Shown piece by piece: positions 9,447 to 42,420 of a stretch of 64,000 bases of DNA. Under the pieces are notes generated by a model. It did no database searches and had not been told where the DNA came from. It saw nothing but the letters and a program-made list of their open reading frames with translations. Every line of letters begins with the position of its first letter. Within the stretch, counting starts at the first letter, position 1. This DNA is from Phycisphaera sp. (lineage in GTDB: Bacteria > Planctomycetota > Phycisphaerae > Phycisphaerales > SM1A02): positions 1-64,000 of the forward strand of contig WGMP01000025.1 in assembly GCA_016124975.1 (NCBI GenBank), in the 5' to 3' direction. The position numbers and the translations under genes were made by a program.

Positions 9447-12410
9447 ATGCGTCAGTTGGCAGCAGCGTCCATCGCCGTTTCCGCCGTCCTGCTCGCGCCG
9501 AGCGCGCTCGCGGGTGGCCCGCAGATCTCGCTCAGCTACCTCGCGAGCACCCCGCGCGTCGGCTTCGATGTCGCGGGCGCGGAGATCGTCGCCTTCGACG
9601 CGGGTTCGAAGCGCGCGTTCGTCGTGAACGGCTTCGCGAACGCGATCGATGTCTTCGACCTCTCGAACCCTGCGGCGCCCGTCGCGGCGGGCAGCTTCTC
9701 CCTGCTTCCCTACGGCGGAGGCGTGCAGAGCGTCGCGATCAAGAACGGCAAGGTCGCATGCGCGGTCTCCGCGGCGGTGAAGACCGACCCCGGCGTCGTT
9801 GTCTTCTTCGACCTCGACCTCAACTTCATCGCATCCGTCACCGTTGGCGCGCTGCCCGACATGGTCACCTTCACGCCCGATGGAACGAAGACGATCACCG
9901 CGAACGAAGGCGAGCCAAGCGACACCTACGCGGTCGACCCCGAGGGCTCGATCAGCATCATCGATGTCAGCGGGAAGTCGATCACGCAGGCCGATGTGAC
10001 CACGCTCGGCTTCAACGGCCTCGCGGCGGGCGTGATCGATCCGTCGATCGTTCCCTTCGGCCCGGGCAACCCGACGATCGGGCAGGACCTCGAGCCCGAG
10101 TATGTCGTCGTCTCGGCGGACTCGACGACGGCGTATGTGTCGATCCAGGAGCACAGCGCGATCGCGACGGTCGACCTCGTGACGAACGCGATCGTCTCGG
10201 TCACGCCGCTCGGGACGAAGAAGCACTACGCGGGAACGCCCGCGCTGACCACGGCTGTGCTCGGCGGTCTGCCGTCGATCGGCACGACCGCCGCGGGGCA
10301 GGACATCCTCCTCGGCGGCCTCAGCGGCCTGTGGATCGATTCGGTCAACGCCACGACGGGCGTCATCACCTTCTGGGCGAACACAGACCGCGGCCCGAAC
10401 CTCGAGCCTGTCAATGTCGACGGCGACGCGGCGCTCGAGCGGCCGTTCGCGCTGCCTGCGTTCCAGCCGCGCATCGCAACCTTCACCTACGACCCCGCCA
10501 CGAACGCCATCGCGCTCACGGGCCAGATCCTGCTGCGCAAGCCCGATGGCTCGCCGATGACGGGCCTCCCGAACATCCAGGGCGCTGCGCCTGGCTTCGC
10601 CTACACCGACGAGCAGCCCGTCGACCTCTTCGGCAACCCGATTCCGAACGACCCGCTCGGCGGCGACCTCGAGGGCCTCTGCCGCACGAGCGACGGCTCG
10701 ATCTGGATGTGCGACGAGTATCGCCCCGCGCTCTACAAGTTCGACGCAACGGGCCTGATGCTCGAGCGCTTCGTGCCCGCAGGATCGAACGCGTTCGGTG
10801 CGACCGTGGGCACGGAGGCGTTCCCGGCGGTCTACGCGCAGCGCCGCGACAACCGCGGCTTCGAGGCGATCGCGGTGTGGCAGGACAAGATCTACTGCTT
10901 CGTGCAGAGCCCGCTCGACAACCCCGATGTCGCGAACGACGCGAACTCGAAGAGCTCGCGCAACATCCGCATCGCGAAGTTCGACCCGGCGACGAGCTCG
11001 GTCGTGGCGGAGTATGTCTATGTGCTCGAGGGCGGCGCGAGCGACAAGATCGGCGACGCGCACGCCTACGGCCCGGGCAAGTTCCTCGTGGTCGAGCGCG
11101 ACAGCGCCGTCGGCGGCAGCTCCCTCAAGAAGATCTTCGAGATCGACCTCGCGGGCGCGACCGATGTCTCCACGCTTTCGCCCGCGATCGCAGGCCCCGG
11201 TGGAACGCTCGACAAGATGACGCCCGCGCAACTCGCGGCTGCTGGGATCGTGCCGGTCAAGAAGACCGTGCATGTCGATCTCGCGGCGATCGGCTACGCG
11301 AATGGCATCGAGAAGGTCGAGGGCATCGCCATCCGCGATCCAGGCACGATCTTCGTCCTCAACGACAACGACTTCCGCATGCCGCTCTCATGGGACATCG
11401 CCACGGGCACCTTCGTGCCGAACGCAAGCGCTCCCGCGCCGACCCTCGGCATGATCACCTTCTCGGGGAACGGCCTCGACCCGAGCGACCAGGACACCGT
11501 GAACCGCATCCTCGGATGGCCCGTCGAGGGCACCTACCAGCCCGACGGCATGGCGCTCTTCACGGCGGGCGGCGAGAGCTACCTCGTCACCGCGAACGAA
11601 GGCGACTCGCGCGAGTGGGGCACCTTCGTCGACCTGACCACGGTGGGTTCCTCGTCGGTGGTCCTTGACGCGAACGCCTTCCGCGGCGCGGCGTGGCTCA
11701 AGAACAACCAGCGCCTCGGCCGTCTCCAGGTGCGCAAGGACCTCGGCGACCTCGACGGAGACGGAGACTGGGACCGCATCGTGCCGATCGGCGGCCGCGG
11801 CATCACCATCTGGAACTCCGCCATCGAGCGCGTGTGGGATTCGGGCGACTTCTTCGAGCAGTACACCGCGCAGCAGTTCCCCGCGAACTTCAACGCGAGC
11901 AATACCAACAACACCCGCGACAACCGCAGCCGCGCCAAGGGCCCCGAGCCCGAGGGCGTGGCGGTGGGCACGATCAACGGCAGGCAGTACGCCTTCGCGA
12001 TCTGCGAGCGCATCGGCGGCATCTTCGCCTACTCGCTCGACAACCCCGCCTCGCCCGTCTTCGAGGGCTACATCAACTCGCGCAGCTTCGCGTTCGCGCC
12101 CGGAGTCGCAGGCTCGGGCGACCTCGGCCCCGAGGGCATCACCTTCGTCCCGTCGGCGGAGTCTCCGAACGGCAAGGCGCTCCTCCTCGTGGCGCACGAG
12201 ATCAGCGGAACGCTCGCGATCTACCAGGTCGACGCGATCTGCGACGCAGCGGGCGACATCAACGCAGACTGCGCGATCGACGCGAGCGACCTCGCCGAAC
12301 TTCTCGCGCGCTGGGGCAAGTGCGGCGCGCCATGCGCGGCCGATCTCAACGGCGACGGGTTCGTCGACGCAAGCGACCTCGCGGTGCTGCTTGCGAACTG
12401 GGGTTCGTGA
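9447..12410 (+). CDS. secreted choice-of-anchor/phytase-esterase-like protein with dockerin-like end
   Basis: A 987-residue exported protein with signal peptide MRQLAAASIAVSAVLLAPSALA. Residues 25-200 and 680-920 form beta-propeller-like repeats (KRAFVVNGFANAIDVFDLSNP; GESYLVTANEGDSREW) of the choice-of-anchor I family. Between them lies an inserted esterase-like domain of the phytase family, with DILLGGLSGLWIDSVN and WANTDRGPNLEP near 287-320 and a second set of conserved blocks to about 620. The last 55 residues hold two dockerin-like Ca-binding repeats (GDINADCAIDASDLAELLAR and DLNGDGFVDASDLAVLLANW) joined by a Cys-containing linker. AGGAG lies seven bases before the ATG. Likely a cell-surface or secreted phosphatase or esterase; the substrate cannot be read from sequence. 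Confidence 0.85.
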   Translation: MRQLAAASIAVSAVLLAPSALAGGPQISLSYLASTPRVGFDVAGAEIVAFDAGSKRAFVVNGFANAIDVFDLSNPAAPVAAGSFSLLPYGGGVQSVAIKNGKVACAVSAAVKTDPGVVVFFDLDLNFIASVTVGALPDMVTFTPDGTKTITANEGEPSDTYAVDPEGSISIIDVSGKSITQADVTTLGFNGLAAGVIDPSIVPFGPGNPTIGQDLEPEYVVVSADSTTAYVSIQEHSAIATVDLVTNAIVSVTPLGTKKHYAGTPALTTAVLGGLPSIGTTAAGQDILLGGLSGLWIDSVNATTGVITFWANTDRGPNLEPVNVDGDAALERPFALPAFQPRIATFTYDPATNAIALTGQILLRKPDGSPMTGLPNIQGAAPGFAYTDEQPVDLFGNPIPNDPLGGDLEGLCRTSDGSIWMCDEYRPALYKFDATGLMLERFVPAGSNAFGATVGTEAFPAVYAQRRDNRGFEAIAVWQDKIYCFVQSPLDNPDVANDANSKSSRNIRIAKFDPATSSVVAEYVYVLEGGASDKIGDAHAYGPGKFLVVERDSAVGGSSLKKIFEIDLAGATDVSTLSPAIAGPGGTLDKMTPAQLAAAGIVPVKKTVHVDLAAIGYANGIEKVEGIAIRDPGTIFVLNDNDFRMPLSWDIATGTFVPNASAPAPTLGMITFSGNGLDPSDQDTVNRILGWPVEGTYQPDGMALFTAGGESYLVTANEGDSREWGTFVDLTTVGSSSVVLDANAFRGAAWLKNNQRLGRLQVRKDLGDLDGDGDWDRIVPIGGRGITIWNSAIERVWDSGDFFEQYTAQQFPANFNASNTNNTRDNRSRAKGPEPEGVAVGTINGRQYAFAICERIGGIFAYSLDNPASPVFEGYINSRSFAFAPGVAGSGDLGPEGITFVPSAESPNGKALLLVAHEISGTLAIYQVDAICDAAGDINADCAIDASDLAELLARWGKCGAPCAADLNGDGFVDASDLAVLLANWGS

Positions 12411-12467: not shown

Positions 12468-13280
12468 CTAACCCGCGCGCCAGAGCCGAACGAGGTCCGC
12501 GACCGCGAGCGACTCGGGGCGCGCGGTCGGATCGATGCCTTCGGGCCAGCTGCGCGCGCGGCCGAGGATCGCGCCGAGCTGCTTGCGGCGCTTCGAGAAG
12601 AGCGTGTGGATGAAGGCGCCGAACGCCTCGGCCTCGTCGGGCGCGAGCGCGGGCATCGCGCGCGGGCGCAGCCCGAGCATCGCGCTCGTGACCTCGGGCG
12701 GCGGCCAGAAGCAGCCCGGCGGCAGCACGGCGATCTGCTCGACCTCGCAGAACGCCTGCACGATGATCGTGAGCGGGCCGTACTCGCCTGAGCCTGGCGC
12801 AGCGCGCAGACGGTCGCCGACCTCGCGCTGAATCGTGACGAACTGGCCTCGGCAGGCGGGCATGGTGGCGCAGATCGCCATCACGGGGCTCGCGGCCTGA
12901 TAGGGGAGGTTCGCGACGAGGGTGAACGGCCGCGCGCCGAGCTTCGCGAGCGCTTCCGCGTTGAGCGCGCGCTTTCCGTCGAGGCAGTCGCCTTCGACGA
13001 GCGTGAAGCGGGGGTTCGCGGCGAAATGCTCGCGCAGGTGCGCTGCGAGGTCGCGGTCGAGCTCGATCGCGACGAGTTCCGCGCCGCGCGCGAGGATCTC
13101 CTCGCTCATCGTGCCCGTGCCCGGGCCGATCTCGAGGACGAGCGATCCTTCGCCGACACCGCTTGTGTCGACGAGCTTCCTCAGGAGGTTCTGGTCGACG
13201 AGGAAGTTCTGCCCGAAGCGATGCTTCGGCGAGAGCCCTCGCGCGAGGAGGATCGCCTTGATGTCGGACTGGGTCTGCAC
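12468..13280 (-). CDS. rsmA: 16S rRNA adenine dimethyltransferase RsmA (KsgA)
   Basis: Dimethylates two adjacent adenosines near the 3' end of 16S rRNA during small-subunit assembly. The 270-residue product begins with the typical AILLARGLSPKHRFGQNFLV, has the SAM-binding loop VLEIGPGTGTMSEEIL and the catalytic VANLPYQAASPV motif, and matches the usual length of about 270. I choose the GTG at 13278-13280: upstream codons, including an in-frame ATG at 13382, fall within a repeated element (13344-13556) and would add a peptide made of repeat sequence. No strong ribosome binding site precedes the GTG. The gene converges with the one ending at 12410, 57 bases away. Confidence 0.93.
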   Translation of the reverse strand: MQTQSDIKAILLARGLSPKHRFGQNFLVDQNLLRKLVDTSGVGEGSLVLEIGPGTGTMSEEILARGAELVAIELDRDLAAHLREHFAANPRFTLVEGDCLDGKRALNAEALAKLGARPFTLVANLPYQAASPVMAICATMPACRGQFVTIQREVGDRLRAAPGSGEYGPLTIIVQAFCEVEQIAVLPPGCFWPPPEVTSAMLGLRPRAMPALAPDEAEAFGAFIHTLFSKRRKQLGAILGRARSWPEGIDPTARPESLAVADLVRLWRAG

Positions 13281-13343
13281 GGGGAGAGGATACGGAACCC
13301 ACGGTTGCCCGTGGACGAAGTCCACGGAACGCCAACCGCCGGG

Positions 13344-13556
13344 GTCGACGGCTGACATCATCCGTTCCGCATGCTGAAGCATGCGGGCACCCCTGCGTGT
13401 TGTGTCGGAGGCTTCTGACCGCCAGAGTCGACGGCTGACATCATCCGTTCCGCATGCTGAAGCATGCGGGCACCCCAGATTGGCAACTCAGACGCGCGCG
13501 ATCCACGCCAAAGGAAGCCGCCGCAGCGGCGACCGCTCAAAATACGCCCGCTCAAG
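13344..13556 (-). repeat. stop-codon-proximal dyad element, copy A, with 50-bp direct duplication
   Basis: Read on the minus strand it begins directly after the stop codon of the cytochrome gene: TTGAGCGGGCG, then TTTTGAGCGGTCGCCGCTGC with the dyad CGCCGC-T-GCGGCG (13519-13531), a CTTTGGCGTGGAT tract, then the 20-bp dyad CCGCATGCTTCAGCATGCGG at 13450-13469. A perfect 50-base segment carrying that dyad is present twice (13344-13393 and 13427-13476), 83 bases apart. The same parts in the same order occur at 19641-19761 and 60596-60737, and the first part alone at 30770-30847. Confidence 0.85.
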
Positions 13557-15539
13557 TCACGACCAGCTCGACAGCAGGATCGAGAGATCCGCCGCGTTCA
13601 CGATGCCGTCGGCGTTGATGTCGCCGAGGCCACCCGCGCCCCAGTTCGAGAGCAGGATCGAGAGGTCGGCAGCGTTGACGGCGCCGTCGCCGTTGAGGTC
13701 GGCGGGGTTGCCCGTCGAGAGCGTGAGCGTCGCGGTGTCCATGGCCACAGGCGCGCTCTTTCCTGCCTCGACCCACGCGTCGTAGGCGATTTGCCCCGCG
13801 TCGTTCGTCACGTTCGCGTCGCGCAGGAACTCGATGTACTCGCGCGTCGTGGTCTGGTAGTAGAGGGTCACCGTCGCGGCGACCGCGCCCGAGGGGATCG
13901 GGAAGTTCGTGTCGTCCCAGTGCTGACCATCGGCGTAGGAGTATCCCACGGCACCCGAGCCGATCGCGTTGAACGCGGCGTTGGTGAAGCCGCGCGGCGG
14001 AATGCGGTTGTCGAAGAAGACCTTGTTCGCGAGCGCAAGGTGGAACCCAGGCCCCGCGGGAATGCCCGTCAGCTTCGAGATCGCGGGCGTGATGCCGTGC
14101 TTCGCCTGGTAGACCTTCGTGTCCTTCGCCTGAAGCGTGGCGGTCTTGCTGTCGTATGCGCCGCGCTCGGCGATGACGGCGCCCTTCGCGTCCTTGAACT
14201 TCACGTTGAGCCACATGCGGCGGCCTTCGGGGTAGCCCGAGGGAAGCTTGTGGCCCGACTCGTTGGTGACGCGCACGCGCAGCGCGGAGCCCTTCTGCGA
14301 GAGCGTCATGTCGCTCGCGGCCTGGAGCATGAGGACGGTCCGCGCGGAGGCCTCGTCGATGCGCTCTTGCGTGAGACCGATTCCATCGGCCTCCTCGGCG
14401 CCCATGATGTTGCGGATCGCCTGCACAACCCAGGTGTTCGCGCCCGCGAAGGAGTGCTGCGGCATGTCGGGACGCTCGAACCACGGATCGCCGAACTCCG
14501 CGAAGCGGCAGCCGCCCGCGATGACCTTCGGCATGTGGCAGTCCTGACAGCTCGAGACGATGCCGTCGGGGTCGTTGCCGCCGAAGCGCCCGTCGGGATA
14601 GGCGACGCCGTTCGGGAACGCGCTGTGCAGCCACTCGCTGTAGGTGCGCTGCTCGGGATACATGTCCATCGGGTCCTGCGTCGGGTGCGGCGAACCGAGG
14701 GCGTTCAGCACATACTCGCCCTTCTTGTTCTTCGAGTAGAGCGGATTGCTCACATCGTGGCAGGTGCCGCAGAACTCGCTCGTGCGGTGGTAGGGCGAGG
14801 TGATGAGCTTGGTCTCGCTGCCGTGCAGGTTGAGCGGCACATCGTCGAAGGGGCCGCGGCGGTTGTCGTCGGGGTCGATGATGTAGCGCGCGTTGCCCGC
14901 GCCCTCTGGAATCAGGCCCTGCTTCTGCAGCGCGCTGATGATCGGGACATCGGGCTCCGCGGGGTCGCCCGGATATCCGATCGCGCTTCCTTCGCCGAGC
15001 ACGGGGTTCACCGCGCGGTGGCAGAAGTGGCAGTTGATGCCGTCGAAGTCGTCGGGAACGAAGTTGTCCGTCGTGCCCGTCGAGGAGCGGCCGCCGAGCC
15101 AGGCGCCGGGGGCGTGGCAGCGGATGCAGGTCTCGCCGCCGACATTCGCGTCCTGGTTCGCGATCGCGAGCGCGGCGTGCCAGATCGGGTCGCGCGCGCT
15201 CTGCGCCATCAGGCTCGCCACCCAGGTGTCGTAGGGCGCGACCTCGACGCCGTACTCCGAGTGGCAGAAGGTGCAGTTCATCGCGGGCACGATCGGGATG
15301 AGCGTCTGCTCCGACGGGTCAGGCTGCGTGCCCGGCTGGAAGAAGTCTGCGATCGTGCTCGGCAGCTGGGTCTGGCCGCCGCCGCGCGCGCTCGAGGAAT
15401 TCGTGATGAGCGCGACGATGGCGATTGCGCCGCCGATCCCCGCGAGGGCGAGCGCCCTGCGTGCGGCCACGCCGCGACGCACCGAACGGGTTCGGGCGGG
15501 CTCGGACGAAGGACGCTTGGGGTGGACTCGCTTGTGCAT
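13557..15539 (-). CDS. five-haem c-type cytochrome with dockerin-like C-terminus
   Basis: A 660-residue exported protein. A basic N-terminus is followed by a hydrophobic segment (about 28-47) that should direct export. Five CXXCH haem-binding motifs are present: CTFCH 89-93, CIRCH 138-142, CHFCH 170-174, CGTCH 257-261 and CQDCH 331-335, with further His residues that could be distal ligands. Residues 390-600 form a beta-rich domain without haem motifs. The C-terminus has two dockerin-like repeats (DLNGDGAVNAADLSILLSNW and DINADGIVNAADLSILLSSW). This suggests periplasmic or surface electron transfer by a protein held in place through its C-terminal repeats. The partner is not encoded nearby. 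A hairpin with a T-tract lies about 90 bases upstream. Confidence 0.9.
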   Translation of the reverse strand: MHKRVHPKRPSSEPARTRSVRRGVAARRALALAGIGGAIAIVALITNSSSARGGGQTQLPSTIADFFQPGTQPDPSEQTLIPIVPAMNCTFCHSEYGVEVAPYDTWVASLMAQSARDPIWHAALAIANQDANVGGETCIRCHAPGAWLGGRSSTGTTDNFVPDDFDGINCHFCHRAVNPVLGEGSAIGYPGDPAEPDVPIISALQKQGLIPEGAGNARYIIDPDDNRRGPFDDVPLNLHGSETKLITSPYHRTSEFCGTCHDVSNPLYSKNKKGEYVLNALGSPHPTQDPMDMYPEQRTYSEWLHSAFPNGVAYPDGRFGGNDPDGIVSSCQDCHMPKVIAGGCRFAEFGDPWFERPDMPQHSFAGANTWVVQAIRNIMGAEEADGIGLTQERIDEASARTVLMLQAASDMTLSQKGSALRVRVTNESGHKLPSGYPEGRRMWLNVKFKDAKGAVIAERGAYDSKTATLQAKDTKVYQAKHGITPAISKLTGIPAGPGFHLALANKVFFDNRIPPRGFTNAAFNAIGSGAVGYSYADGQHWDDTNFPIPSGAVAATVTLYYQTTTREYIEFLRDANVTNDAGQIAYDAWVEAGKSAPVAMDTATLTLSTGNPADLNGDGAVNAADLSILLSNWGAGGLGDINADGIVNAADLSILLSSWS

Positions 15540-19640: not shown

Positions 19641-19761
19641 GACTCCGACGCGCGTCGTTCCGCATGCTGAAGCATGCGGGCACCCCTGCCTGGGGACTCC
19701 GACGCGTTTCTTTCACGCCAAAGGGAGCCGCCGCAGCGGCGACCGCTCAGACCACTCCCGC
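19641..19761 (-). repeat. stop-codon-proximal dyad element, copy B
   Basis: Read on the minus strand, directly after the stop of the gene at 19762-20859: TGAGCGGTCGCCGCTGCGGC with the CGCCGC-T-GCGGCG dyad (19729-19741), CCTTTGGCGTG, a first CGTCGGAGTC (complement of 19695-19704), the 20-bp dyad CCGCATGCTTCAGCATGCGG (19660-19679) and a second CGTCGGAGTC (complement of 19641-19650). The two decamers are direct repeats flanking the second dyad, the same as in copy D. Confidence 0.85.
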
Positions 19762-29780: not shown

Positions 29781-30753
29781 CGCAGCACGAACGGTCGCGC
29801 CGACGGCGAGCCCAGCGCCGAAGGGCGCCGCAGCAGCTTCCTCTGGGTTCGCACCCGCGCTGCGCGCGTTTCTCGCCTACATCCGCATCGAGTGCGGCCT
29901 CGCGCCCGCGACCATCGCCGCGTACGGACGCGACCTCGACGACCTCGTCGCCGACCTCGCCGCCCGCGGTGTCGCCACTCCCGCCGCGACGGAGCCCGCG
30001 CACCTCGTCGAGCATGTGCGCTTCCTCTCGCGCGACCGAAGCCTCGACCCGTCGACCATCGTGCGGCATGTCTCGACGGTGCGGGTCTTCTTCCGTTTCC
30101 TGCACGCGAGCAACCTGATCCCGTCGAACCCTGCGCGGCTCCTCGAGCGGCCGACGAAGTGGCGCAAGCTGCCGGGCGTCATCTCGCCTGCGCAGATGAA
30201 GAAGCTGATCTCGGCGCCCACGCCCGACAACAGCGACCTCTGGGAGCGCGACCGCGCCATCCTCGAGCTGATGTACGCCGCGGGCCTGCGCGCGAGCGAG
30301 GTCGGTTCCGTCAGGCTCAACCAGTGGTTCCCGACCATCCAGTCGCTCCATGTCGTGGGCAAGGGCTCGAAGCAGCGCGTGGTTCCCGTGGGGACGCCCG
30401 CGGCGCAGGCGCTCACGCGCTGGCTCGAAGAGGTGCGCCCGGGCATCGTGCAGGGCGACGAGGTGCGTGCCGACCACCGCCTCTTCGTCTCGAACCGAGG
30501 CCGCCCGCTCGAGCGCGTCGCCGTGTGGATGCTCGTCAAGAAGTATGCCGCCGCGGCGGGGCTCCACGATGTACACCCGCATGTCCTGCGACACAGCTTC
30601 GCCACCGATCTCCTGCGCGGCGGCTGCGACCTTCGCACCGTGCAGGAATTCCTCGGTCACGCGAGTGTGGTGACGACGCAGATCTACACCCATGTCGACA
30701 AGTCGCGCCTGCGCGAGGTGGCGGCGAAGTTCCATCCGCGATTCGGCCACTGA
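29773..30753 (+). CDS. xerD: tyrosine recombinase XerD/XerC type
   Basis: Site-specific recombinase that resolves chromosome dimers at dif. From the GTG at 29773 the product has 326 residues, close to the usual 300. An N-terminal SAM-like domain (residues 25-130, IRIECGLAPATIAAYGRDLD) is followed by the catalytic domain with all conserved residues: Arg173 in GLRASEV, Lys200 in GKGSK, His270 and Arg273 in HVLRHSFATDLL, His296 in FLGHAS and the nucleophile Tyr305 in QIYTHVD. The frame is open further upstream, but those residues are low-complexity Pro/Ser/Ala. XerD rather than XerC is likely from the motif pattern, without certainty. A dyad element lies directly after the stop. Confidence 0.88.
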   Translation: MPDAARTVAPTASPAPKGAAAASSGFAPALRAFLAYIRIECGLAPATIAAYGRDLDDLVADLAARGVATPAATEPAHLVEHVRFLSRDRSLDPSTIVRHVSTVRVFFRFLHASNLIPSNPARLLERPTKWRKLPGVISPAQMKKLISAPTPDNSDLWERDRAILELMYAAGLRASEVGSVRLNQWFPTIQSLHVVGKGSKQRVVPVGTPAAQALTRWLEEVRPGIVQGDEVRADHRLFVSNRGRPLERVAVWMLVKKYAAAAGLHDVHPHVLRHSFATDLLRGGCDLRTVQEFLGHASVVTTQIYTHVDKSRLREVAAKFHPRFGH

Positions 30754-30769
30754 GGGCTGCGCGGGCGTG

Positions 30770-30847
30770 GTTTGAGCGCTCGCCGCTGCGGCGGCTCGCT
30801 TTGGTGCTCGGAGGTCTGCCGACGATCGCGCCGCTGCGGCGGCTCGC
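30770..30847 (+). repeat. stop-codon-proximal dyad element, copy C (first part only, twice)
   Basis: TGGTTTGAGCGCTCGCCGCT begins 17 bases after the xerD stop and carries the CGCCGC-T-GCGGCG dyad at 30781-30793, followed by GCTCGCTTTGG. A second CGCCGCTGCGGCGGCTCGC copy lies at 30829-30847. The 20-bp CATGC dyad found in copies A, B and D is absent here. Confidence 0.75.
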
Positions 30848-30938
30848 GTGGGCGCGGGGGGCGTCGCCGTGTGCGCGGAGTCTTCGCGTCCACCGCGCTC
30901 CACGCCGTGCGCAGAGGCGGTAGCCTCCCGCGCACGCC

Positions 30939-32450
<1,512 letters not shown>

Positions 32451-32505
32451 CTCCATGCGCGGCGTGCTCGGGTACCCTGCGCGCTGCGCCTCTGGTGACC
32501 TCCGC

Positions 32506-33297
32506 ATGAGCGACGACGACACAGGCCCCTACAGGATCCTCGACGAGATGCCGCCGACGCCGCGGCTTCCTGGGTCGGTGTCGCTCTTCGACCACGCCGA
32601 CGGCGCGATCGACGCGGTCGGCCTCGACATCGTCAGCCAGGCCAAGGCCTGCGTGCGCGCGTTCGGCGACTTCCACCTCGCGCTCTCGGGCGGGTCGACC
32701 CCGATGCCGCTCTACCAGCGCATGATGATCGACCCTGCGTTCCGCGACATGCCGTGGCGGCGCACGCACCTGTGGATCGTCGATGAGCGCTGCGTGCCGT
32801 TCGAGGACCAACGCTCGAACTACAGGCAGATCGCGGAGCTCATCGTCGACCACTCGGGTATCCCGAGGTCGCAGGTGCATCCGATCCACGCCTACGAGCC
32901 CGACGCCGACGCCCTCTACGAGGACGAGCTGCGCGAGACGCTCGGCTGGCGCGAGAAGGGCCACGACCGACTCGACTTCGTGCTGCTCGGGATGGGCGAC
33001 GACGGCCACACCGCGAGCCTCTTCCCGCATTCCGACGCGCTGCGCGTCGACGACCGCTTCGCGTGCTTCAACCGAGGCCCGCAGGTCACGCCGCCCGACC
33101 GCGTGACGATGACATACCCGCTCATCAACAGCGCGCGCTTCATCGGCATCCTCGTCCTCGGCAAGAAGAAGGCGGGCATGGTGCACCGCATCGCGACGGG
33201 CGCAGACCCCGTGCGCGACATCCCGATCAAGGGCATCAGTCCAATCGGCGGTGAGCAGCGGTGGTACCTCGACGCCGACGCCGCGCGGTGGGGATGA
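32506..33297 (+). CDS. pgl: 6-phosphogluconolactonase
   Basis: Hydrolyses 6-phosphogluconolactone, the product of the upstream zwf enzyme. The 263-residue product shows family blocks FHLALSGGSTPMPLYQRMM near 57, THLWIVDERCVPFEDQRSNY near 88 and VLLGMGDDGHTASLFPHSDA near 161 with the catalytic His. The C-terminal part NSARFIGILVLGKKKAGMVH also fits. The ATG at 32506 is chosen because the sequence before it lies in the zwf intergenic gap. An inverted-repeat element follows 43 bases after the stop. Confidence 0.94.
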   Translation: MSDDDTGPYRILDEMPPTPRLPGSVSLFDHADGAIDAVGLDIVSQAKACVRAFGDFHLALSGGSTPMPLYQRMMIDPAFRDMPWRRTHLWIVDERCVPFEDQRSNYRQIAELIVDHSGIPRSQVHPIHAYEPDADALYEDELRETLGWREKGHDRLDFVLLGMGDDGHTASLFPHSDALRVDDRFACFNRGPQVTPPDRVTMTYPLINSARFIGILVLGKKKAGMVHRIATGADPVRDIPIKGISPIGGEQRWYLDADAARWG

Positions 33298-33339
33298 GGC
33301 TTTTGTTGCGACTGCGCTGCGTGCATCTTCACAGAGAAG

Positions 33340-33506
33340 TTTCTCACGGAGGCACGGAGATCACGGAGGCCAAGTCTTGCAACCGTCACGCTGCGCGCGC
33401 GATCAGGCAGTTCTCTCCCTCCCTCTCTCTCTGTCACCGTCTTCCCAGGCAAATCACGCGACTGCCCCTGATCTCCGCGCCTCCGTGCCTCCGTGAGAGA
33501 CTCTCC
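33340..33506. repeat. inverted-repeat element with ACGGAGGCACGGAG arms (copy 2)
   Basis: Left arm at 33340-33371: TTTCTCACGGAGGCACGGAG then ATCACGGAGGCC. Right arm at 33469-33506: TGATCTCCGCGCCTCCGTGC then CTCCGTGAGAGACTCTCC, whose complement matches the left arm closely. The centre of about 97 bases includes a pyrimidine tract (TCTCTCCCTCCCTCTCTCTC, 33411-33430). Arms match the element at 9199-9327; centres do not. It lies between the convergent ends of pgl and the helicase gene. Confidence 0.8.
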
Positions 33507-33523
33507 GGTGTCAGCACGAACGC

Positions 33524-35497
33524 TCATCGACGCGGATTGCCAACCGCCGCCGCCTGCACAGCGTCGCGCACGAAGCGGGAGCGCGACTCCTCGTCGCCGT
33601 AGCTCACGAAGCACGCGGTGCGTGCGCGCGTGATCGCAACATAGAAGAGCCGTCGCTCGCTTTCGATCGCGGGGCTGCGCTCGAGCGTGGCGCGGGCGTT
33701 CTTCTTCGCGAAGCAGCCCGATTCTTCGTCGCCCGGGAGCGGCATCCAGCCTTCGTCGCACTCGGGGATGAAGACATAGTCCCACTCGAGGCCCTTCACG
33801 CGGTGGATCGTGGTCACGCGCACGCAGTCTTCTCGCGCGCGGCCCTGCGTGGTGTCGACGGCGGCGAGGCGCGACTCGAGCTCCGCGAGCGGACAGCGCG
33901 CGGCGCGCGCGAAGTCCTCGAGCACCTCGTAGGCGCGCAGGCATTCCTGCACGCTCGCGGGGCTCCGGTGCGCGGAAAGCGCCTCCTCGAAGCCGATCTC
34001 GCTGCGAAGGACGCGGATCGCCTGCGCAGCACCCGATTCGTCTCCTGCGCGGCGGTGCGCCTTGAGCAGCGTGTTGCCGAGCGCCTTCAGCTCCTTGCGT
34101 GCGCCGCCGTGGAATCCCGCCATCACATGGAGGTCGTCCTCGAAGCAGAGGTCGCCGAGCGTGAGGCCGTCGCGCTGCGCGTCGCGCAGAAGAAGGTCGA
34201 GACCCTTGCGCGAGAGCCCACGGAACGGGCGATTGAGGATACGCGACGCATTCTTCGACAGCTCTTCATCGAGCGGCACGCGCAGCGTGCGCGCGGCGCG
34301 CGCATAGGCGAGGAGGAGCGCGAGCGACGGATCGTTCGCGAACGCGGCGTGCTCGTCCATCGCGAAGGGGATTCCCGCCGCGAGCATGCGCCACTCGAAC
34401 GCGAGGAGCTGCGCCCACGAGCGGCCGAGCACCACGATGTCGCGCGGGGGCGTGCCCGCGGCGCGCAGTTCCTCGAGCTTTGCGACGAGCGGATCGAGCG
34501 CGCGCGGCTCGTCGCCGGACTCGGTGATGACCACGAGCCGCGTGTCCTGCTCTGGGTCGGCCGCGACGATGCGCTTCGGGACGCGTGAGCCGCTCGCCGC
34601 GATCACGCGTTCTGCCGCGGCCGCGAGGTCGGGCCCGAAGCGGAAGCTCGTCGACAGCGTGAAGCGTTCGTGCGGGTGCGCGGTGAAGCGCTTCGCGAAC
34701 TCGCCGCGGATGAACGCGCTGCGCGCGCCGCGCCACTCGTGGATCGTCTGGTCGTCGTCGCCGACGACGGTCACGCGCGCGCGCGTACCTGCGAGGAGCT
34801 CGAGCAGTCGGAACTGCGCGTGGTCGCAGTCCTGGAACTCGTCGACGACGAGATGCTCGAAGCGGTCAGCGAGCCCGAGCCGCGCGGCGTCTGACTCGAG
34901 CGCGCGCACGCTGTCGACGACGAGATCGTCGAAGGTGCGGAATCCTTCGGCGCGGCGCTTCTTCTCGAAGCGCGCGTAGACGCCGACGAGGAACTCGTCT
35001 TCTGCGTGGCCCGCATCCGCGGGCGCGACCAGCATCGACTTCCACTCGCGGATCGCCTCGAGCGCACTCTCTGCGTCGCGGCCGTCGTCTTCCTCCGGGT
35101 GCTCGTTCCGCTCGGCGAACTCCTCGCGGATCGCGTCTCCGACCGCGCGCAGCACCTCGCCCGTTTCGGTGACGAGCCGCATGCGCGGCACCGCGGCGAC
35201 ATCCTCGAGATGGCGCACGAGGCCGAACGCGAGCGCGTGCCAGGTCTGGACGCGCAGCGCGCGTACATCGACGCCCGTCGCCGCAAGCCGCGCCTCGAAC
35301 GCGCGCTGCGCGGCCTTGTTGAACATCACTGCGCGCATCTGCGCGCTCGGTACGCCGCGGATCGAAAGCTCCGCGAGGCGATGCACCATCGTCGTGGTCT
35401 TGCCGCTGCCCGCGACCGCGAGCACGGTGAGGTGCGCGTCGCCGCGCGCCTCGACCACAGCGCGCTGCTCGTCGGTGAGGTGGACGCGCGCGCTCAC
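33524..35497 (-). CDS. UvrD/Rep-family superfamily 1 DNA helicase
   Basis: A 657-residue ATP-dependent 3'-5' helicase type. Motifs in order: Walker A AVAGSGKTTTMVHR near 29, Walker B VVDEFQDCDHAQ, motif III VVGDDDQTIHEWRGA, motif IV FRFGPDL, motif V VTTIHRVKGLEWDYVFIPEC and motif VI RRLFYVAITRART. This is shorter than UvrD (about 720) and nearer to the small UvrD-like group. The GTG start (35495-35497) overlaps the ruvX stop by four bases (GTGA), so translation is coupled. Last gene of the operon that includes ruvA and ruvX; a role in repair or recombination is a reasonable inference. Confidence 0.92.
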   Translation of the reverse strand: MSARVHLTDEQRAVVEARGDAHLTVLAVAGSGKTTTMVHRLAELSIRGVPSAQMRAVMFNKAAQRAFEARLAATGVDVRALRVQTWHALAFGLVRHLEDVAAVPRMRLVTETGEVLRAVGDAIREEFAERNEHPEEDDGRDAESALEAIREWKSMLVAPADAGHAEDEFLVGVYARFEKKRRAEGFRTFDDLVVDSVRALESDAARLGLADRFEHLVVDEFQDCDHAQFRLLELLAGTRARVTVVGDDDQTIHEWRGARSAFIRGEFAKRFTAHPHERFTLSTSFRFGPDLAAAAERVIAASGSRVPKRIVAADPEQDTRLVVITESGDEPRALDPLVAKLEELRAAGTPPRDIVVLGRSWAQLLAFEWRMLAAGIPFAMDEHAAFANDPSLALLLAYARAARTLRVPLDEELSKNASRILNRPFRGLSRKGLDLLLRDAQRDGLTLGDLCFEDDLHVMAGFHGGARKELKALGNTLLKAHRRAGDESGAAQAIRVLRSEIGFEEALSAHRSPASVQECLRAYEVLEDFARAARCPLAELESRLAAVDTTQGRAREDCVRVTTIHRVKGLEWDYVFIPECDEGWMPLPGDEESGCFAKKNARATLERSPAIESERRLFYVAITRARTACFVSYGDEESRSRFVRDAVQAAAVGNPRR

Positions 35498-35946
35498 CCG
35501 CCGGTCCCGTCGCCGCGCCGCGCGCGCAGGAAATCCTCGAGGATCGCGCACGCCGCCAGCGCGTCGCGCAGCGCCTTCTTCTCGCCGTGCGTGCGGCCCG
35601 TGCGCTTCAGGCGCTCCTCGGCGTCGAAGCTCGAGAGGCGCTCGTCGTGGAAGTGGAGCGCGAACCGCGCGTGCGGACCGCGGTCGGCGCGGAACGCCTT
35701 CTCGAGCTCGGCCGCGAACTCGCGCACGAGCTTCGCGCGCGGGCCTTCCGTGCCGTCCATGTTGAAGGGCATCCCGACCACGATCGCGTCGGGGCCGTAT
35801 TCGTCGATCGCGCGCATCGACGCGCGCACCTGCAGCGCGCGCGTCGGCGCCTCGACGACCGACAGAGGCTGCACCAGGCCGACGATGTCGTCTCCCGCCG
35901 CGAAGCCGGTCCGCTTGTCGCCGAGATCGATCGTGAGGAACCGCAT
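35494..35946 (-). CDS. ruvX: Holliday junction resolvase-like RuvX/YqgF nuclease
   Basis: A 150-residue RNase H-fold protein of the YqgF/RuvX family, implicated in rRNA end maturation and possibly in junction cleavage. Seen are DLGDKRTGFA at 7-16 with the first catalytic Asp, IVVGMPFNMDGTEG near 55, and the C-terminal HDERLSSFDAEERLK near 98 with the second acidic pair. The ATG is two bases after the manC stop and its own stop overlaps the helicase start. Both junctions show a tightly packed operon. Confidence 0.92.
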   Translation of the reverse strand: MRFLTIDLGDKRTGFAAGDDIVGLVQPLSVVEAPTRALQVRASMRAIDEYGPDAIVVGMPFNMDGTEGPRAKLVREFAAELEKAFRADRGPHARFALHFHDERLSSFDAEERLKRTGRTHGEKKALRDALAACAILEDFLRARRGDGTGG

Positions 35947-35948
35947 CG

Positions 35949-37049
35949 TCAGCGCCACGCCTCTGGTGCGCGCTCGGCGAGCTCCTTCACCCGCTCGGCC
36001 TCGGCCGCGGGCACGACGAGCGTGGCGTCCTTCGTGTGCACGATCACGAGGTCCTCGCAGCGGACGGTCGCGATCAGATGCCCGGGCTCGTCGGAGATCA
36101 CGCGCACGCCGCGCGAACCGTCGTCGAGCCAGTGCGCGTTCGCGCGGTTGCCGCGGTCGTCGGGCGGAACCGACTCGGTGAAGCTCGACCAGCTTCCGAT
36201 GTCGAGCCAGTTCGCGCCGAGCGTGAGCGCGCAGACCTCGAATGCGCCGTCCTCGCACGCGGCCGCTGGCTCCATCACGGCGCGGTCGAAAGACTCCTTG
36301 GGAAGCGTCGCGTAGACGCGGCGCATCGCGTCGGCGCGGGCGGGCGAGTCCCATGCCGCAGCGATCTCGGCAAGCCCCGCCGCCGATGCGGGGGCGAATC
36401 GCGCGATTGCCGCGCGCATCGTGTCGGCGCGGAAGACGAACATCCCCGAGTTCCACACGAAGTTCCCGAGGCGCAGGTACTCCTCCGCGCGCATGCGGTC
36501 GGGCTTCTCCACGAAGCGCGTGGCGCGGAACGCGTGCTCGACGCCGTCGACGGGGCCGCCGCGCTCGATATATCCATAGCCCGTCGCCGCGTAGGTCGGG
36601 GCCACGCCGAAGGTGGCGATCCGTCGCGGCGCCGCCTCGACCGCCGCGAACGCCGCGCGAAGGCGCTCGCGGAAGAGCTCGACGGGCTCGATCAAGTGGT
36701 CGGCGGTGAGGATCGCGAGCGGCGCGCGCGGATCGCGCTCCGCGAGGACGAAGGCCAGCAGGCCGACCGCGTTGAGCGTGTCGCGGCCCATCGGCTCGAG
36801 GAGCGCGTTCTCCGCGCGCAGCTCGGGAAGCGCGCCGCGCATCGCCGCTGCGAAGGCCTCGGTGGTGCACAGCAGCCGCCGCTCGGGCGCCACCACGCCG
36901 TCGACGCGCCGCCACGCGTGCATCAGGAGCGACTCGCCGCCCGCCACGGGAAGCAGCTGCTTCGGACGCGCGCGGCGCGAGAGCGGCCAGAGCCGCGTGC
37001 CCGCGCCTCCGGCGATGATGCCTGCGTAGCGGTGTTCGTTGACTTCCAT
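35949..37049 (-). CDS. manC: mannose-1-phosphate guanylyltransferase
   Basis: Makes GDP-mannose from mannose 1-phosphate and GTP. The 366-residue product has the nucleotide-binding GIIAGGAGTRLWPLSRRARP at 10-29, PKQLLPVAGG, LLEPMGRDTLNAVGLLAFVL with ADHLIEP, the substrate motif FVEKPDRM, WNSGMFVFRADTM and the NWLDIGSW segment. It lacks the C-terminal phosphomannose isomerase domain of bifunctional forms. It is placed within an operon of recombination genes but its product feeds surface polysaccharide synthesis, whose locus begins about 5 kb away. Confidence 0.93.
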   Translation of the reverse strand: MEVNEHRYAGIIAGGAGTRLWPLSRRARPKQLLPVAGGESLLMHAWRRVDGVVAPERRLLCTTEAFAAAMRGALPELRAENALLEPMGRDTLNAVGLLAFVLAERDPRAPLAILTADHLIEPVELFRERLRAAFAAVEAAPRRIATFGVAPTYAATGYGYIERGGPVDGVEHAFRATRFVEKPDRMRAEEYLRLGNFVWNSGMFVFRADTMRAAIARFAPASAAGLAEIAAAWDSPARADAMRRVYATLPKESFDRAVMEPAAACEDGAFEVCALTLGANWLDIGSWSSFTESVPPDDRGNRANAHWLDDGSRGVRVISDEPGHLIATVRCEDLVIVHTKDATLVVPAAEAERVKELAERAPEAWR

Positions 37050-37080
37050 GCCGCGCTCGCCTTCCGCTGCGTGCGTTTCT

Positions 37081-37740
37081 TCACCCGACGCCGCGCGTCC
37101 GAAGCGCGCGCGTCACGATCTCGTCGGCGCCGAGCGACTCGCCGCCCGCTGCACCCACCACGCGCTCGATCTTCGCACGCGCCTGCACGCGCGGCTCGCC
37201 GAGGGCCACGAGGACCTCCTCCGCATCGGCCGCTGGGCCGACGGGGAGCGCCACCGCGCTCGCGGCGGCGGCCGCCACCTGCGCCGCGCGCCTCGCGGCA
37301 GTCGGGTCGGCCAGGAATGGATCGAGCTTTCCCTTGAGTTCGACGATGGTGCTCTCCGCGGTGCGCTTGCCGATCTCGGGAAGCGTGGCGAGGAACTTGG
37401 CGTCGCCCGCCGCGATCGCCTCGGCCATGCGCGCGTGCGACACCTGCATCGCGCGCAGCGCCTTGCGGTTGCCGATTCCCTTCACGGTCGTCAGGAGCTC
37501 GAAGAACGCCCGCTGCTCGCGCGACCTGAAGCCGATGACCCGCGGTGCGAAGTGCGAGCCCTGTCCCTGCGACTCGAGGTAGTGGAGCGTGAAGAACGAC
37601 ACCTCGCGGCCCTGCCGCGCGAGGAGTTCGCCCGCGTCGCACGCGGGAACGAGCACCTCGTAGACGAGCCCGCCCGCGACGCGCACCTCTGCGACGCCGT
37701 CGATCACATCCTCGAGGGTTCCTTCGATCCGCGCGATCAT
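37081..37740 (-). CDS. ruvA: Holliday junction branch migration protein RuvA
   Basis: Tetrameric junction-binding subunit that works with the RuvB motor. The 219-residue product has the OB-fold domain (MIARIEGTLEDVIDGVAEVR onwards), two helix-hairpin-helix elements (LLTTVKGIGNRKALRAM and LATLPEIGKRTAESTIVELK), an Ala-rich flexible linker (about 145-165) and the C-terminal three-helix domain that contacts RuvB. ruvB and ruvC are not in the window. It lies 33 bases after the acyltransferase gene and 31 before manC. Confidence 0.95.
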   Translation of the reverse strand: MIARIEGTLEDVIDGVAEVRVAGGLVYEVLVPACDAGELLARQGREVSFFTLHYLESQGQGSHFAPRVIGFRSREQRAFFELLTTVKGIGNRKALRAMQVSHARMAEAIAAGDAKFLATLPEIGKRTAESTIVELKGKLDPFLADPTAARRAAQVAAAAASAVALPVGPAADAEEVLVALGEPRVQARAKIERVVGAAGGESLGADEIVTRALRTRGVG

Positions 37741-37773
37741 GCGGGCCGCATCCTACGGCGGAAGCGCCCGCCG

Positions 37774-38658
37774 TCAGGCGCGACGGCCGAAGGCTTCGAG
37801 ATTTCGCTCGATCGTCGCGGCGTTGGGCGGCGGCAGCTCGGTGGTCGAGATCGGCCAGCCCGTGTCCTTCGCGATCAGGTCGAAGATGCGCTCGACCGCA
37901 TCGCGGCCGTGGCCGTCGGGGCCCGGCTCGACAAGCGCGACGAAGCGCAGCCGCAGACGGGTCGGGGTGAAGAGGGCGCCGTAGGCGGTCTCCGCGATGC
38001 GCCCAGGGTCGATCGTCGCCACGAGGACGGGCGCCTGGGTGCGGGTGAGGATCAGGCGCAGCCCTCCCGAGAACGGCCGCAGGTGCCGCGGTGGCCGCTC
38101 GATCGCACCCTCGGGGAAGATTCCAAGCACCCCACCCGCCTCGACATGCGCGATCGCGGTCTTGAGCGCGGTTGCATCGCGGGCGTCGAAGCTGACGGGA
38201 ATGACGCGCAGCTTGCGCCACCACCAGGCGAGCGGCGCGTGCATCATCTCCGCGCTCATCATCCAGCGGATCGGGTGGCGCATCTCTGTCTGGATGGCGA
38301 TCGGGTCAAGCCCCGAGCCGTGCGTCGAGACCACGACGAGTCCGCGCGGGCCGATCGACTGCGGAATCAGCGCGGCGTTCTCGACCGTGAGCCGCTGGAA
38401 CAGCCGCGTGTAGGGGATGGCGACGAGGCGCATCCACCCGACGAGGGCGTCATCGGGATGGAGCCGCCGCCCGACCTTTCGCAGCACGACGAAGAGGAGG
38501 GCGGGAAGCCCGATGAGGATGAGAAGGAGCGCCGCGGCCGCGAGCCCGGGGGGCGCCGCCGCGCCCGCGACGGACCATGGCGGCGACACGCCGCCGATCC
38601 ACGACGGAACGGCGGGAATTCCGAGCGCGAGGCCGAGCGGGGGGGCTCCATCCACCAT
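37774..38658 (-). CDS. 1-acyl-sn-glycerol-3-phosphate acyltransferase (PlsC-like)
   Basis: A 294-residue membrane-bound acyltransferase of phospholipid or glycolipid synthesis. A hydrophobic N-terminal segment (about 30-60) is followed by the HX4D catalytic box in [12 protein letters not shown] near 113, the substrate-binding [19 protein letters not shown] near 178, and an [20 protein letters not shown] block. The ATG at 38656-38658 is chosen because the upstream codons fall in the divergent carB promoter region. It is the first gene of the plsC-ruvA-manC-ruvX-helicase operon. The acceptor cannot be fixed from sequence. Confidence 0.88.
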
Positions 38659-38852
38659 CGTCGGCACGGTCGCGTCCGCGTGCGCGCCTGTCAACCGCGC
38701 CGTCGCGTCAGGCCGAGGCGACTTGCTGTACACTCGTGCGGATTTTGCCCGCACCCCGCCGCTCGGCGGGCCCGTTCGACACCAAGCCAGGCCGCGCCGC
38801 ACCCTTCGTCCCCCACGGATGCGGCGGGCACACACCCTCACCGACGACGCAC
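38659..38852. promoter_or_regulatory. divergent promoter region of carB and the plsC operon
   Basis: 194 bases between two divergent starts. TACACT at 38729-38734 is the only good -10 candidate for carB, with a poor -35 17 bases upstream. The carB leader would be about 110 bases. No attenuator or PyrR-type element is visible. Confidence 0.3.
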
Positions 38853-41800
38853 ATGCCTCGCCGCGAAGACATCCACACGATCCTCATCATCGGTTCCGGC
38901 CCCATCGTCATCGGTCAGGGCTGCGAGTTCGACTACTCGGGCACCCAGGCGTGCAAGAGCCTCCGCGAGGAGGGCTACCGCGTGGTGCTCGTCAACTCGA
39001 ACCCCGCGACGATCATGACCGATCCCGCGTTCAGCGACCGCACCTACATCGAGCCGATCACGCCCGAGGCGGTCGAGAAGATCATCGTCCGCGAGAAGGA
39101 GCTCGGCACGCCGATCGACGCGCTGCTGCCGATCCTCGGCGGGCAGACCGCGCTCAACTGCGCCTGCAAGCTGTGGGACGCGGGCGTCCTCCAGAAGCAC
39201 GGCGTCGAGATGATCGGCGCCGACCGCCGCGTCATCCACCGCGCCGAGGACCGCGAGGAGTTCCGCAAGATCGTCGAGGCGCTCGGGCTGAAGCAGCCGA
39301 AGGCGAAGACCGTCACCACGCTCGAGGATGCGCGCGAGTTCCTGCAGGAGATCGGCCTTCCCGCCATCATCCGCCCCGCGTTCACGCTTGGCGGCACGGG
39401 CGGCGGCATCGCCTACAACCGCGAGGAGTTCGACGACATCATTCGCCGCGGCCTCGCCGCGAGCATGATCGGCCAGGTGCTCATCGACCAGTCGGTGCTC
39501 GGCTGGAAGGAGTACGAGCTCGAGGTCGTGCGCGACACGCGCGACAACTGCATCATCGTCTGCGGCATCGAGAACATCGACCCGATGGGCGTCCACACGG
39601 GCGACTCGATCACGGTCGCGCCGATTCAGACGCTGACCGACAAGGAGTACCAGCGCATGCGCGACGCGGCGTTCGCGATCATGCGCGCCGTCGGCGTCAA
39701 CTGCGGCGGCTCGAACGTGCAGTTCGCCATCGACCCGGCGTCCGGCGAGATGGTCGTCGTCGAGATGAACCCGCGCGTCTCGCGCAGCTCGGCGCTCGCG
39801 TCGAAGGCGACGGGCTTCCCCATCGCGAAGATCGCGGCGAAGCTCGCGGTCGGCTACACGCTCGACGAGCTCAAGAACGACATCACGGGCACGACGAGCG
39901 CGTGCTTCGAGCCGTCGATCGACTATGTGGTCGTGAAGATCCCGCGCTGGACCTTCGAGAAGTTCCCCGAGGCCGACGAGACGCTCACCACGCAGATGAA
40001 GTCGGTCGGCGAGGCCATGTCGATCGGGCGCACCTTCAAGGAGGCGTTCCAGAAGGCGATCCGCTCGATGGAGGTGAAGCGCTTCGGCTTCGGCCTCGAC
40101 CGGAACGACAAGTGGCTCGCCGCGCAGCGCGCAAGTGCCGAGGATCTCGCGAAGGGCGTGCAGGTCGCCGACCGCTCGCACGCGGTGTGGCCGCTCCCCG
40201 AGGAGACGCTCACCCGCAAGCTCGCGGTTCCGTCGCAGGGGCGCCTCTACTACGTGCGCTACGCGTTCAAGATGGGCTGGAGCGCCGAGCGCATCCACGC
40301 GCTGAGCCGCATCGACCCGTGGTTCCTCGAGGAGTTCCGCCAGCTCGTCGCGTTCGAGGACGAGCTGACGCGGCACGCGTCGCTCGAGGCCGTGCCCCGC
40401 GAGGTGCTCTTCGAGGCGAAGCGCCTCGGCTATTCCGACGCGCAGCTCGCGAACCTCTACCTCGGCACGATCTCGGCGGAGACGATCCTCGCCGTGCGCG
40501 CGCACCGCAAGTCGCTCGGCATCGAGCCCGTCTACAAGCTCGTCGACACCTGCGCCGCCGAGTTCGAGGCCGTGACGCCCTACTACTACTCGACCTACGA
40601 GGCGCCGTTCACTGTGAACGGGAAGCCCGTGCTCGACGACGAGATCCGCGTCACCGACCGCGAGAAGATCGTCATCCTCGGCGGCGGTCCGAACCGCATC
40701 GGGCAGGGGATCGAGTTCGACTACTGCTGCTGCCAGGCCGCGTTCGCGTGCGAGTCGATGGGCTTCGAGAGCGTGATGATCAACTCGAACCCCGAGACCG
40801 TGTCGACCGACTACGACACGAGCGACCTCCTCTTCTTCGAGCCGCTCACGCTCGAGGATGTGCTGAATGTGATCGAGCGCCTCAACGGCGGCGGCATCGA
40901 CCGCGCCGACCGCGCGGGCAAGGTCGTCGGCGCGATCGTCCAGTTCGGCGGGCAGACGCCGCTCAACCTCGCGCACGGCCTCGCGAAGGCGGGCGTGCCG
41001 CTCGTCGGCACGGGCCTCGACTCGATCGACCTCGCCGAGGACCGCGACCGGTTCAAGGCGATGCTCGACGAGATGGGACTCAAGCAGCCGCCGAGCGGAA
41101 TCGCCCGTTCGCTCGAGGAGGCCGTCGCCTGCGCGAACGGGATCGGCTATCCCGTGCTCGTGCGCCCGAGCTATGTGCTCGGCGGGCGCGGCATGGAGAT
41201 CTGCCCTGACGAACCCGCGCTGCGCACCTACATGACGAGCGCCGTCAATGTGAGCGACCTCGCGAACGCGCCCGTCCTCATCGACCGCTTCCTCAACGAC
41301 GCGACCGAGGTCGATGTCGATGTGGTCGCCGACTTCGAGCCGAGCGAAGGGACGCGCGCGCGGATGATCTCGCACGACCCCGAGCCGCCGCAGGCGCTCT
41401 ACTGCGGCGTCATGGAGCACATCGAGGAGGCGGGAATCCACTCGGGCGACTCGACCTGCGTGGTGCCGCCGTTCGCGCTGCCGCCCGAGACCGTCGAGGA
41501 GATCCGCTCGACCGCGCGTCGCCTCGCGGAGAAGCTGCGCGTGCGCGGGCTCATGAACATCCAGTTCGCCGTGAAGGACGGCGTCGTCTACATCCTCGAG
41601 GTGAACCCGCGCGCGTCGCGCACCTCGCCCTTCGTCGGCAAGGCGAAGGGCGTTGCGTGGCCCTACATCGCCGCGCAGGTGATGATGGGCCGCTCGCTCG
41701 CGCGCCTCGGCACGAAGGAGATTCCCGACACGGGCTTCTACGCCGTGAAGGAGTCGGTCTTCCCGTTCGCGAAGTTCCCCGGCGTCGATGTCGTCCTCGG

Positions 41801-42353: not shown

Positions 42354-42360
42354 CGGCCCT

Positions 42361-42420
42361 TTCGATGGCGATGTCGATTTCGATGTCGATTTCGATTTCG
42401 ACGTCGATGGCTGCGGCTGC
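42361..42420. repeat. five 12-base units between carB and the GH57 gene
   Basis: The units TTCGATGGCGAT, GTCGATTTCGAT (twice), TTCGACGTCGAT and GGCTGCGGCTGC are also readable as ten 6-base units. The array starts eight bases after the carB stop and ends 30 bases before the stop of the convergent GH57 gene. Unlike the other arrays it is not beside a start codon. Confidence 0.85.

Follow-up and report, generated by a model that had tools for sequence, protein, structure and literature searches.

Why should a bacterial multihaem cytochrome end in a pair of dockerin repeats, and what could read them? The question is raised by a gene in the first 64,000 nucleotides of contig WGMP01000025.1 from Phycisphaera sp., the stretch of DNA that we analysed and refer to as the window. 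An earlier note had recognised five haem motifs and two terminal calcium repeats in this gene, and both parts stand: the open reading frame translates from an ATG start on the minus strand into 660 amino acids with five CXXCH motifs and two 12-residue loops. The features discussed below are as follows.

13557..15539, minus strand: penta-haem cytochrome gene with C-terminal dockerin (open reading frame, families, model, fold match)
15375..15539, minus strand: basic and then hydrophobic N-terminus, residues 1-55 (sequence; low model confidence for residues 1-53)
15261..15275, minus strand: haem motif 1 CTFCH, residues 89-93 (invariant in 77/77 aligned sequences)
15114..15128, minus strand: haem motif 2 CIRCH, residues 138-142 (C, C and H invariant in the 77-sequence alignment)
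15018..15032, minus strand: haem motif 3 CHFCH, residues 170-174 (C, C and H invariant, same alignment)
14757..14771, minus strand: haem motif 4 CGTCH, residues 257-261 (C, C and H invariant, same alignment)
14535..14549, minus strand: haem motif 5 CQDCH, residues 331-335 (C, C and H invariant, same alignment)
13722..14324, minus strand: beta-sandwich domain, residues ~406-606 (model strands; inside the 5ze8 match; motif N-x3-H-x-[LM]-P)
13560..13721, minus strand: dockerin tail, residues 607-660 (Dockerin_1 31.3 bits; fold matches to 2y3n_B and 2ozn_B)
13665..13700, minus strand: calcium loop 1, D614-D625, DLNGDGAVNAAD (canonical ligand positions in sequence)
13587..13622, minus strand: calcium loop 2, D640-D651, DINADGIVNAAD (canonical ligand positions in sequence)
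9447..12410, plus strand: choice-of-anchor I protein with the same tail type at ~12249-12389 (Pfam and host tail profile)

The cytochrome body and its dockerin tail

The charge and hydrophobicity of residues 1-55 suggest that they are probably an export signal or a membrane anchor. General multihaem Pfam models match the haem region below their cut-offs. Homologues were taken from the best 80 of 422 named loci, and 76 of them were aligned with the cytochrome, leaving out L085, L112 and L125 (cut or masked) and L155 (no readable frame). The AlphaFold2 model built on this 77-sequence alignment has a mean pLDDT of 89.7, and its best solved match is 5ze8, the penta-haem cytochrome c552 of Thermochromatium tepidum, with Z 23.1 and r.m.s.d. 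2.9 for 342 residues at 25% identity (Foldseek E 8.4e-16). The match spans model residues 79-607 and covers the haem and beta domains. The profile of the 77 sequences also finds 5ze8 (E 4.4e-05) with the haem motifs aligned, and in this alignment the two proteins share CQTCHMP and the region around N-x3-H-x-[LM]-P. When the haem region was folded alone (pLDDT 95.4), 5ze8 was again the top match (Z 13.1), followed by nitrite reductases at a middling Z of ~6 to 7.

Judged by its modelled fold, the body belongs with the penta-haem cytochromes of the c552/PHC kind. According to the part of PMC11976967 accessible to us, ExtKL and Gsu2801 of Geobacter together with cable-bacteria proteins form one pentaheme cytochrome (PHC) family, which is structurally homologous to c552, itself without a clear assigned role. 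The same part ranks PHC members among potentially catalytic cytochromes with five-coordinate haem and cites a proposed link between c552 and the archaeal nanowire AvECN. AvECN is not among the structure matches listed for our model, which weighs neither for nor against a nanowire reading. The NCBIfam ExtKL equivalog scored 22 bits on the cytochrome against a cut-off of 250, and by its sequence the protein appears to be a relative of ExtKL, not an ExtKL. Five CXXCH motifs are found in 75 of 79 readable named homologue loci, six in three, and four in one cut copy. Histidines 239, 251, 362, 430 and 500, all outside CXXCH, are kept in 72 to 77 of the 77 sequences; their number would suffice for one second ligand of its own per haem if they do act as ligands, and the cytochrome may or may not be catalytic. 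We infer that the redox role of the cytochrome might be that of a cell-envelope electron carrier or a reductase.

The tail scores above the Pfam Dockerin_1 cut-off of 22.9 bits, and its model (residues 607-660) superimposes on the dockerin 2y3n_B with Z 8.9 and r.m.s.d. 1.7 over 54 residues, and on 2ozn_B with Z 7.4, where Z below 8 can mean a common arrangement. A dockerin fold is thus predicted for the tail, built from two calcium loops, a helix after each, and a conserved tryptophan at the helix end. With the NCBI model for GC-type dockerins, NF041540, the tail reached 21.5 bits against a cut-off of 29; TIGR04183, the type IX sorting domain, gave no match on the cytochrome, and the PEP-CTERM motif is not among its Pfam matches.

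Conservation and exchange of the C-terminal end

The cytochrome was found in 121 of 151 family genomes, including the host of the window (E<=1e-10). Five CXXCH motifs and two terminal repeats are present in each of the 30 nearest family loci, and among the further gene ends 103 of 106 match the tail model, one being cut by a contig end and two lacking a tail; this agreement indicates that the fusion of cytochrome and tail did not arise by chance. The tail is kept in 133 of 136 examined family copies, a count that leaves out eight rows comprising fragments, weak matches and one copy (G126:C190) that reaches the body end. The earlier note had called the combination unusual. This holds against the open-licence literature searched, in whose accessible parts we found no cytochrome-dockerin fusion in print, but not within the family, where the fusion is the rule.

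The two tail-less copies (G009 and G032) have divergent bodies of 45 and 40% identity, and no tail remnant occurs in any frame of the stretch. Their genomes gave at least 1 and at least 5 dockerin matches, respectively, the lowest and third lowest of the 121 cytochrome-bearing genomes; family dockerin counts are lower bounds, with ~39 candidates per genome at most scored (39 of 226 in G032). The tail-bearing G098 gave at least 3. Dockerin-rich genomes have the cytochrome more commonly (median at least 23 matches with it vs at least 10.5 without), in a comparison that ignores kinship and completeness.

Selection on the tail is purifying, and over eight close pairs its pN/pS of 0.29 vs 0.12 for the body shows that it evolves faster. 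Loop ligands have been lost in some homologue tails (e.g. L127 and L130). Together with the two copies lacking any tail, these observations might suggest that the tail is a partnerless calcium-binding end piece, retained because it aids stability or solubility and passed around by shuffling. Such an end piece would not be expected to persist in nearly every family copy, to have a true sorting domain stand in for it where type IX export exists, or to have helix motifs alike within a genome; we consider this explanation improbable.

The exchange of ends can be followed beyond the family. Most planctomycete homologues among the best 80 of 422 end in dockerin-like repeats. At E<=0.001, 24 of 77 homologue ends match the GC-type dockerin model and 12 of 77 Dockerin_1, the remaining members of the dockerin class having been judged by loop pattern and eye. 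In six homologues from other phyla, a type IX sorting domain (TIGR04183) takes the place of the tail: L150 (Bacteroidales), L152 and L160 (Zixiibacteriota), L161 (Eisenbacteria), L156 and L158. The type IX channel SprA is present in all six of these genomes and was not found in the remaining 31 of the 37 tested, which stand for 37 of the 80 loci and the host. On the body tree the tail classes, assigned by eye, change three times, the least possible number. The type IX exchange is one event on this tree, and the agreement with SprA therefore counts as one observation, not six. Type IX export of the cytochrome itself was rejected, as we found no SprA in the host genome and no sorting domain on the protein.

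In eight planctomycete loci (L138, L140, L141, L142, L144, L145, L153 and L159), a beta-type C-terminal domain replaces the dockerin. A sugar-dehydrogenase-like neighbour in L141 has an end that resembles this domain by eye, and the beta-type end may be the own tag of that planctomycete branch.

Tailed proteins of the host and the search for a reader

The neighbouring gene at 9447-12410 encodes 987 amino acids, with a body that matches choice-of-anchor I at 411 bits and a tail that matches Dockerin_1 at 27.1 bits, bearing out the earlier observation that two genes of the window end alike on unrelated bodies. The gene between them (12468-13382) is presumably KsgA-like. Next to the cytochrome gene of the nearest homologues recur what we take to be oligopeptide-transport genes, a lipoprotein-like gene and an ABC-permease-like gene; outside the nearest homologues the neighbours vary, and no conserved redox partner adjoining the cytochrome gene was found among the homologue loci. 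A divergent cytochrome copy in L147 is followed (near 10046) by a membrane protein with the iron-sulfur-type motif GRFFC-x-W-x-C, which we assume to be NapH/NosR-like. The same protein, judged by eye, follows the G009 cytochrome (L314), and one of 80 named loci has the arrangement. It is a possible electron donor of the cytochrome.

The window also contains a 24-base palindrome, GTGCCCGCATGCTTCAGCATGCGG, in four exact copies (13367-13390, 13450-13473, 19660-19683 and 60695-60718) where none is expected. The host genome has 79 copies, often ~137 bases apart and near contig ends; the palindrome is a dispersed repeat.

The tail is widespread in the host genome, whose assembly comprises 59 contigs and is 97.6% complete. 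PF00404 gave at least 64 matches (150 of 204 candidates scored), and a profile of 49 C-terminal tails at least 126 (150 of 206 candidates scored). Listing the host proteins with this C-terminus, as had been proposed, thus returned at least 111 near-full-length tail matches at E<=1.8e-11, the 49 profile seeds included. In 47 of 60 extracted frames the tail lies within 10 residues of the stop; in the other 13 it is internal or near the N-terminus, or the frame leaves the fetched stretch. Among the bodies of the 47 frames are four subtilases and two reprolysin-like metallopeptidases, as well as propellers of the FG-GAP and other types. Enzymes resembling alpha-amylase and PET hydrolase are also represented, as is a di-haem oxidoreductase (DHOR), a possible redox companion of the cytochrome. 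In three host loci (L175, L176 and L208) the dockerin stands near the N-terminus and not at the end; L176 and L208 presumably encode proteins of the sulfatase-modifying-factor type.

The earlier note had named the same tails on cytoplasmic proteins as an observation that would count against its idea. By a rough rule, signal-like starts are found in 52 of 60 tailed frames vs 8 of 17 cytoplasmic controls, and under a strict setting in 35 of 60 vs 1 of 17; the controls were chosen from their sequences, and two are flagellar rod-type genes. The rule gives many false positives, as the 8 of 17 controls illustrate, and its direction leans towards export of the tailed proteins.

The tails are written in dialects. 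They differ by lineage, with FFDVSAFLNAF in L118, DFNAWIIAFN in L116 and DIDALINVVAGG beside L131, and their helix motifs stay alike within one genome. The tails of 27 neighbour open reading frames from 15 loci tend to resemble most closely that of the cytochrome in their own locus (median rank 1 of 51, in the top five for 24 of 27), a similarity that was reached in 0 of 2000 permutations over loci. The dialect is weaker across the host genome, where the median rank is 5 of 52 and 24 of 47 fall in the top five. Of the 64 tails not assigned to the type IX, beta-domain or L162 class, 13 had no match to a strict loop pattern, three of the 13 being cut or masked loci. The sharing of dialects would fit a common reader, and it would also fit a copying of tails among genes. 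Many unrelated host bodies, a type IX domain in the same place in six homologues and a dialect shared with neighbours support the idea of the earlier note that the tail serves as a tag.

A tag could also address a surface and not a protein. Tailed bodies such as peptidases and the amylase-like enzyme are of types whose substrates lie outside the cell, and the tail might fix the secreted cytochrome to a polysaccharide or a mineral. The lineage dialects and the match to protein-binding dockerins fit a protein partner better, and we know of no dockerin that binds sugar. This possibility appears very improbable to us.

The obvious protein partner is a cohesin, and ordinary cohesin-dockerin docking of a planctosome-like type might operate here if the cohesin of a surface adaptor is missing from the assembly or too divergent for Pfam. 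The dockerins matched by the tail were solved with cohesins, and the host assembly is in 59 pieces. In the genus of the host, 8 of 9 other sampled genomes have a cohesin above the Pfam cut-off, and by eye the proteins resemble the adaptor described in the accessible part of PMC6461901. The host genome itself gave no match to Pfam cohesin PF00963 at E<=1, and a genus profile of cohesin proteins matched only two dockerin tails in it and no cohesin. In G125, a genome of the same genus, no cohesin was found although its cytochrome (L033) keeps both repeats. Across the family, 27 of 151 genomes have a cohesin match at E<=0.01, 19 of them above the Pfam cut-off, and the search was without a match in 96 of 121 cytochrome-bearing genomes and in 100 of 124 genomes with at least 10 dockerin matches. 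Furthermore, few cohesins would have to serve many dozens of dockerins. Cohesin docking is possible in the genus, yet it does not account for the near-universal tail unless most cohesins escape Pfam, and we regard it as unlikely for this cytochrome. For the surface scaffold that the earlier note had suggested as a possible place for enzymes and electron carriers, no partner was found in the host genome.

Eight family cohesin proteins (L061, L063, L065, L066, L069, L071, L072 and L075), aligned out of 20 loci, have one conserved domain order, by eye: the cohesin is followed by an HYR-like repeat and then by another domain, and a long end of dockerin-like type comes last.

Other components were sought in hand-picked genomes (exosortase in 30, PEP-CTERM in 30, secretin in 20). 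Exosortase as the reader of the tail was not supported, being present in 29 of 30 genomes, dockerin-rich or dockerin-poor alike; PEP-CTERM matches number 0 to 12 per genome. The host encodes a giant secretin on the minus strand (G000:C18 ~30124-44628; L329, L330) in an open frame of 4834 amino acids, and frames of ~1800 to 5100 amino acids occur in 12 of 20 genomes tested. According to Pfam, the one in G072 (L335:5110-19509) contains, within 4800 amino acids, 39 Secretin_N stretches and a single Secretin domain. The eight genomes without a giant frame have 0 to 3 dockerin matches among the matches listed; six of them are of one genus, and G098 is fragmented. G009 and G032 have the frame despite few dockerin matches listed. 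The giant secretin may belong to the export path of the tagged proteins.

A proposed localisation tag and its relation to known systems

The anatomy, the fold match, the conservation, the exchange of tags and the lack of a recognisable cohesin are computed observations, and from them we draw a reading to which we give an even chance: a cytochrome of the c552/PHC fold carries the dockerin as a lineage-wide C-terminal localisation tag of exported proteins, with a putative common reader. The cytochrome would leave the cytoplasm via its N-terminal signal, and its haem would be attached outside the inner membrane, where CXXCH cytochromes acquire their haem. The calcium-folded tail might then be bound by a single putative reader that serves the cell's tagged proteins and would sort them to, or hold them at, the cell outside. 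In other phyla, the same body would carry the lineage's own tag, such as the type IX sorting domain. The putative reader is probably not a cohesin recognised by Pfam. Several points could speak against a tag: the type IX exchange is a single event, tail copying could explain the dialects, which are weaker in the host, the tail-less bodies are divergent, the tail-bearing G098 has few dockerin matches listed, the signal rule often responds to controls, 13 of 60 frames have no terminal tail, and the tail lies below the GC-type dockerin cut-off.

More generally, the dockerin-like tails of Phycisphaerae might be a general sorting signal rather than a means of cohesin docking, with one putative reader for each lineage dialect and the cytochrome thereby outside the cell; we offer this extension tentatively and with some doubt. 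Should the tag reading be right, proteins outside the cell in this little-cultured bacterial lineage would follow a sorting code that can be tested, and an electron carrier of the c552/ExtKL kind would sit on the cell surface or farther out. It has long been a puzzle that dockerins occur where cohesins are lacking. A single cytochrome body that takes different ends across several phyla amounts to a natural experiment, in which the replacement hints at the job of the tail, and with genomes now listed as tail-rich, tail-poor or tail-less, candidate readers can be sought by gene presence.

Among known systems, c552 (5ze8) and the PHC family combine, as this cytochrome does, five haems with a beta or immunoglobulin-like domain. 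The match to 5ze8 ends at model residue 607, ahead of the dockerin, whereas for the PHC family the accessible part of PMC11976967 describes truncated-haemoglobin additions and names no dockerin. The planctosome has been proposed for freshwater Phycisphaerae, with dockerin-tailed exported proteins and single-cohesin adaptors bearing HYR repeats (PMC6461901, accessible part). The genus of the host likewise has cohesin proteins with an HYR-like repeat and a dockerin-like end. However, the planctosome was proposed for peptidases, the word 'cytochrome' is absent from the main text of PMC6461901, and neither a cohesin scaffold nor an adaptor, as expected in the same genome for a cellulosome or planctosome, was found in the 97.6% complete host. 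Dockerins are also reported from methanotrophic archaea, organisms not thought to degrade cellulose; there, scaffoldin-like proteins have up to five cohesins, and the cargo named in the accessible part of the source (PMC9012536) is transport proteins, with no cytochrome among it. C-terminal dockerins occur with a cohesin scaffold in Cloacimonadota as well, according to the accessible part of PMC8542988.

The proteins of NF041540, the GC-type dockerin, have the same kind of tail, and this model matches 34 of 47 tailed host frames at E<=0.001. The name of the model says 'anchored'. The tail of our cytochrome lies below its cut-off; no paper using the words 'GC-type dockerin' was found in the open-licence literature searched. 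The type IX sorting domain has a fold unrelated to the dockerin tail and its channel SprA was not found in the host. On our reading the two nevertheless work alike: the sorting domain, too, is a C-terminal tag on many unrelated bodies, and on homologues of this cytochrome it occupies the position of the dockerin.
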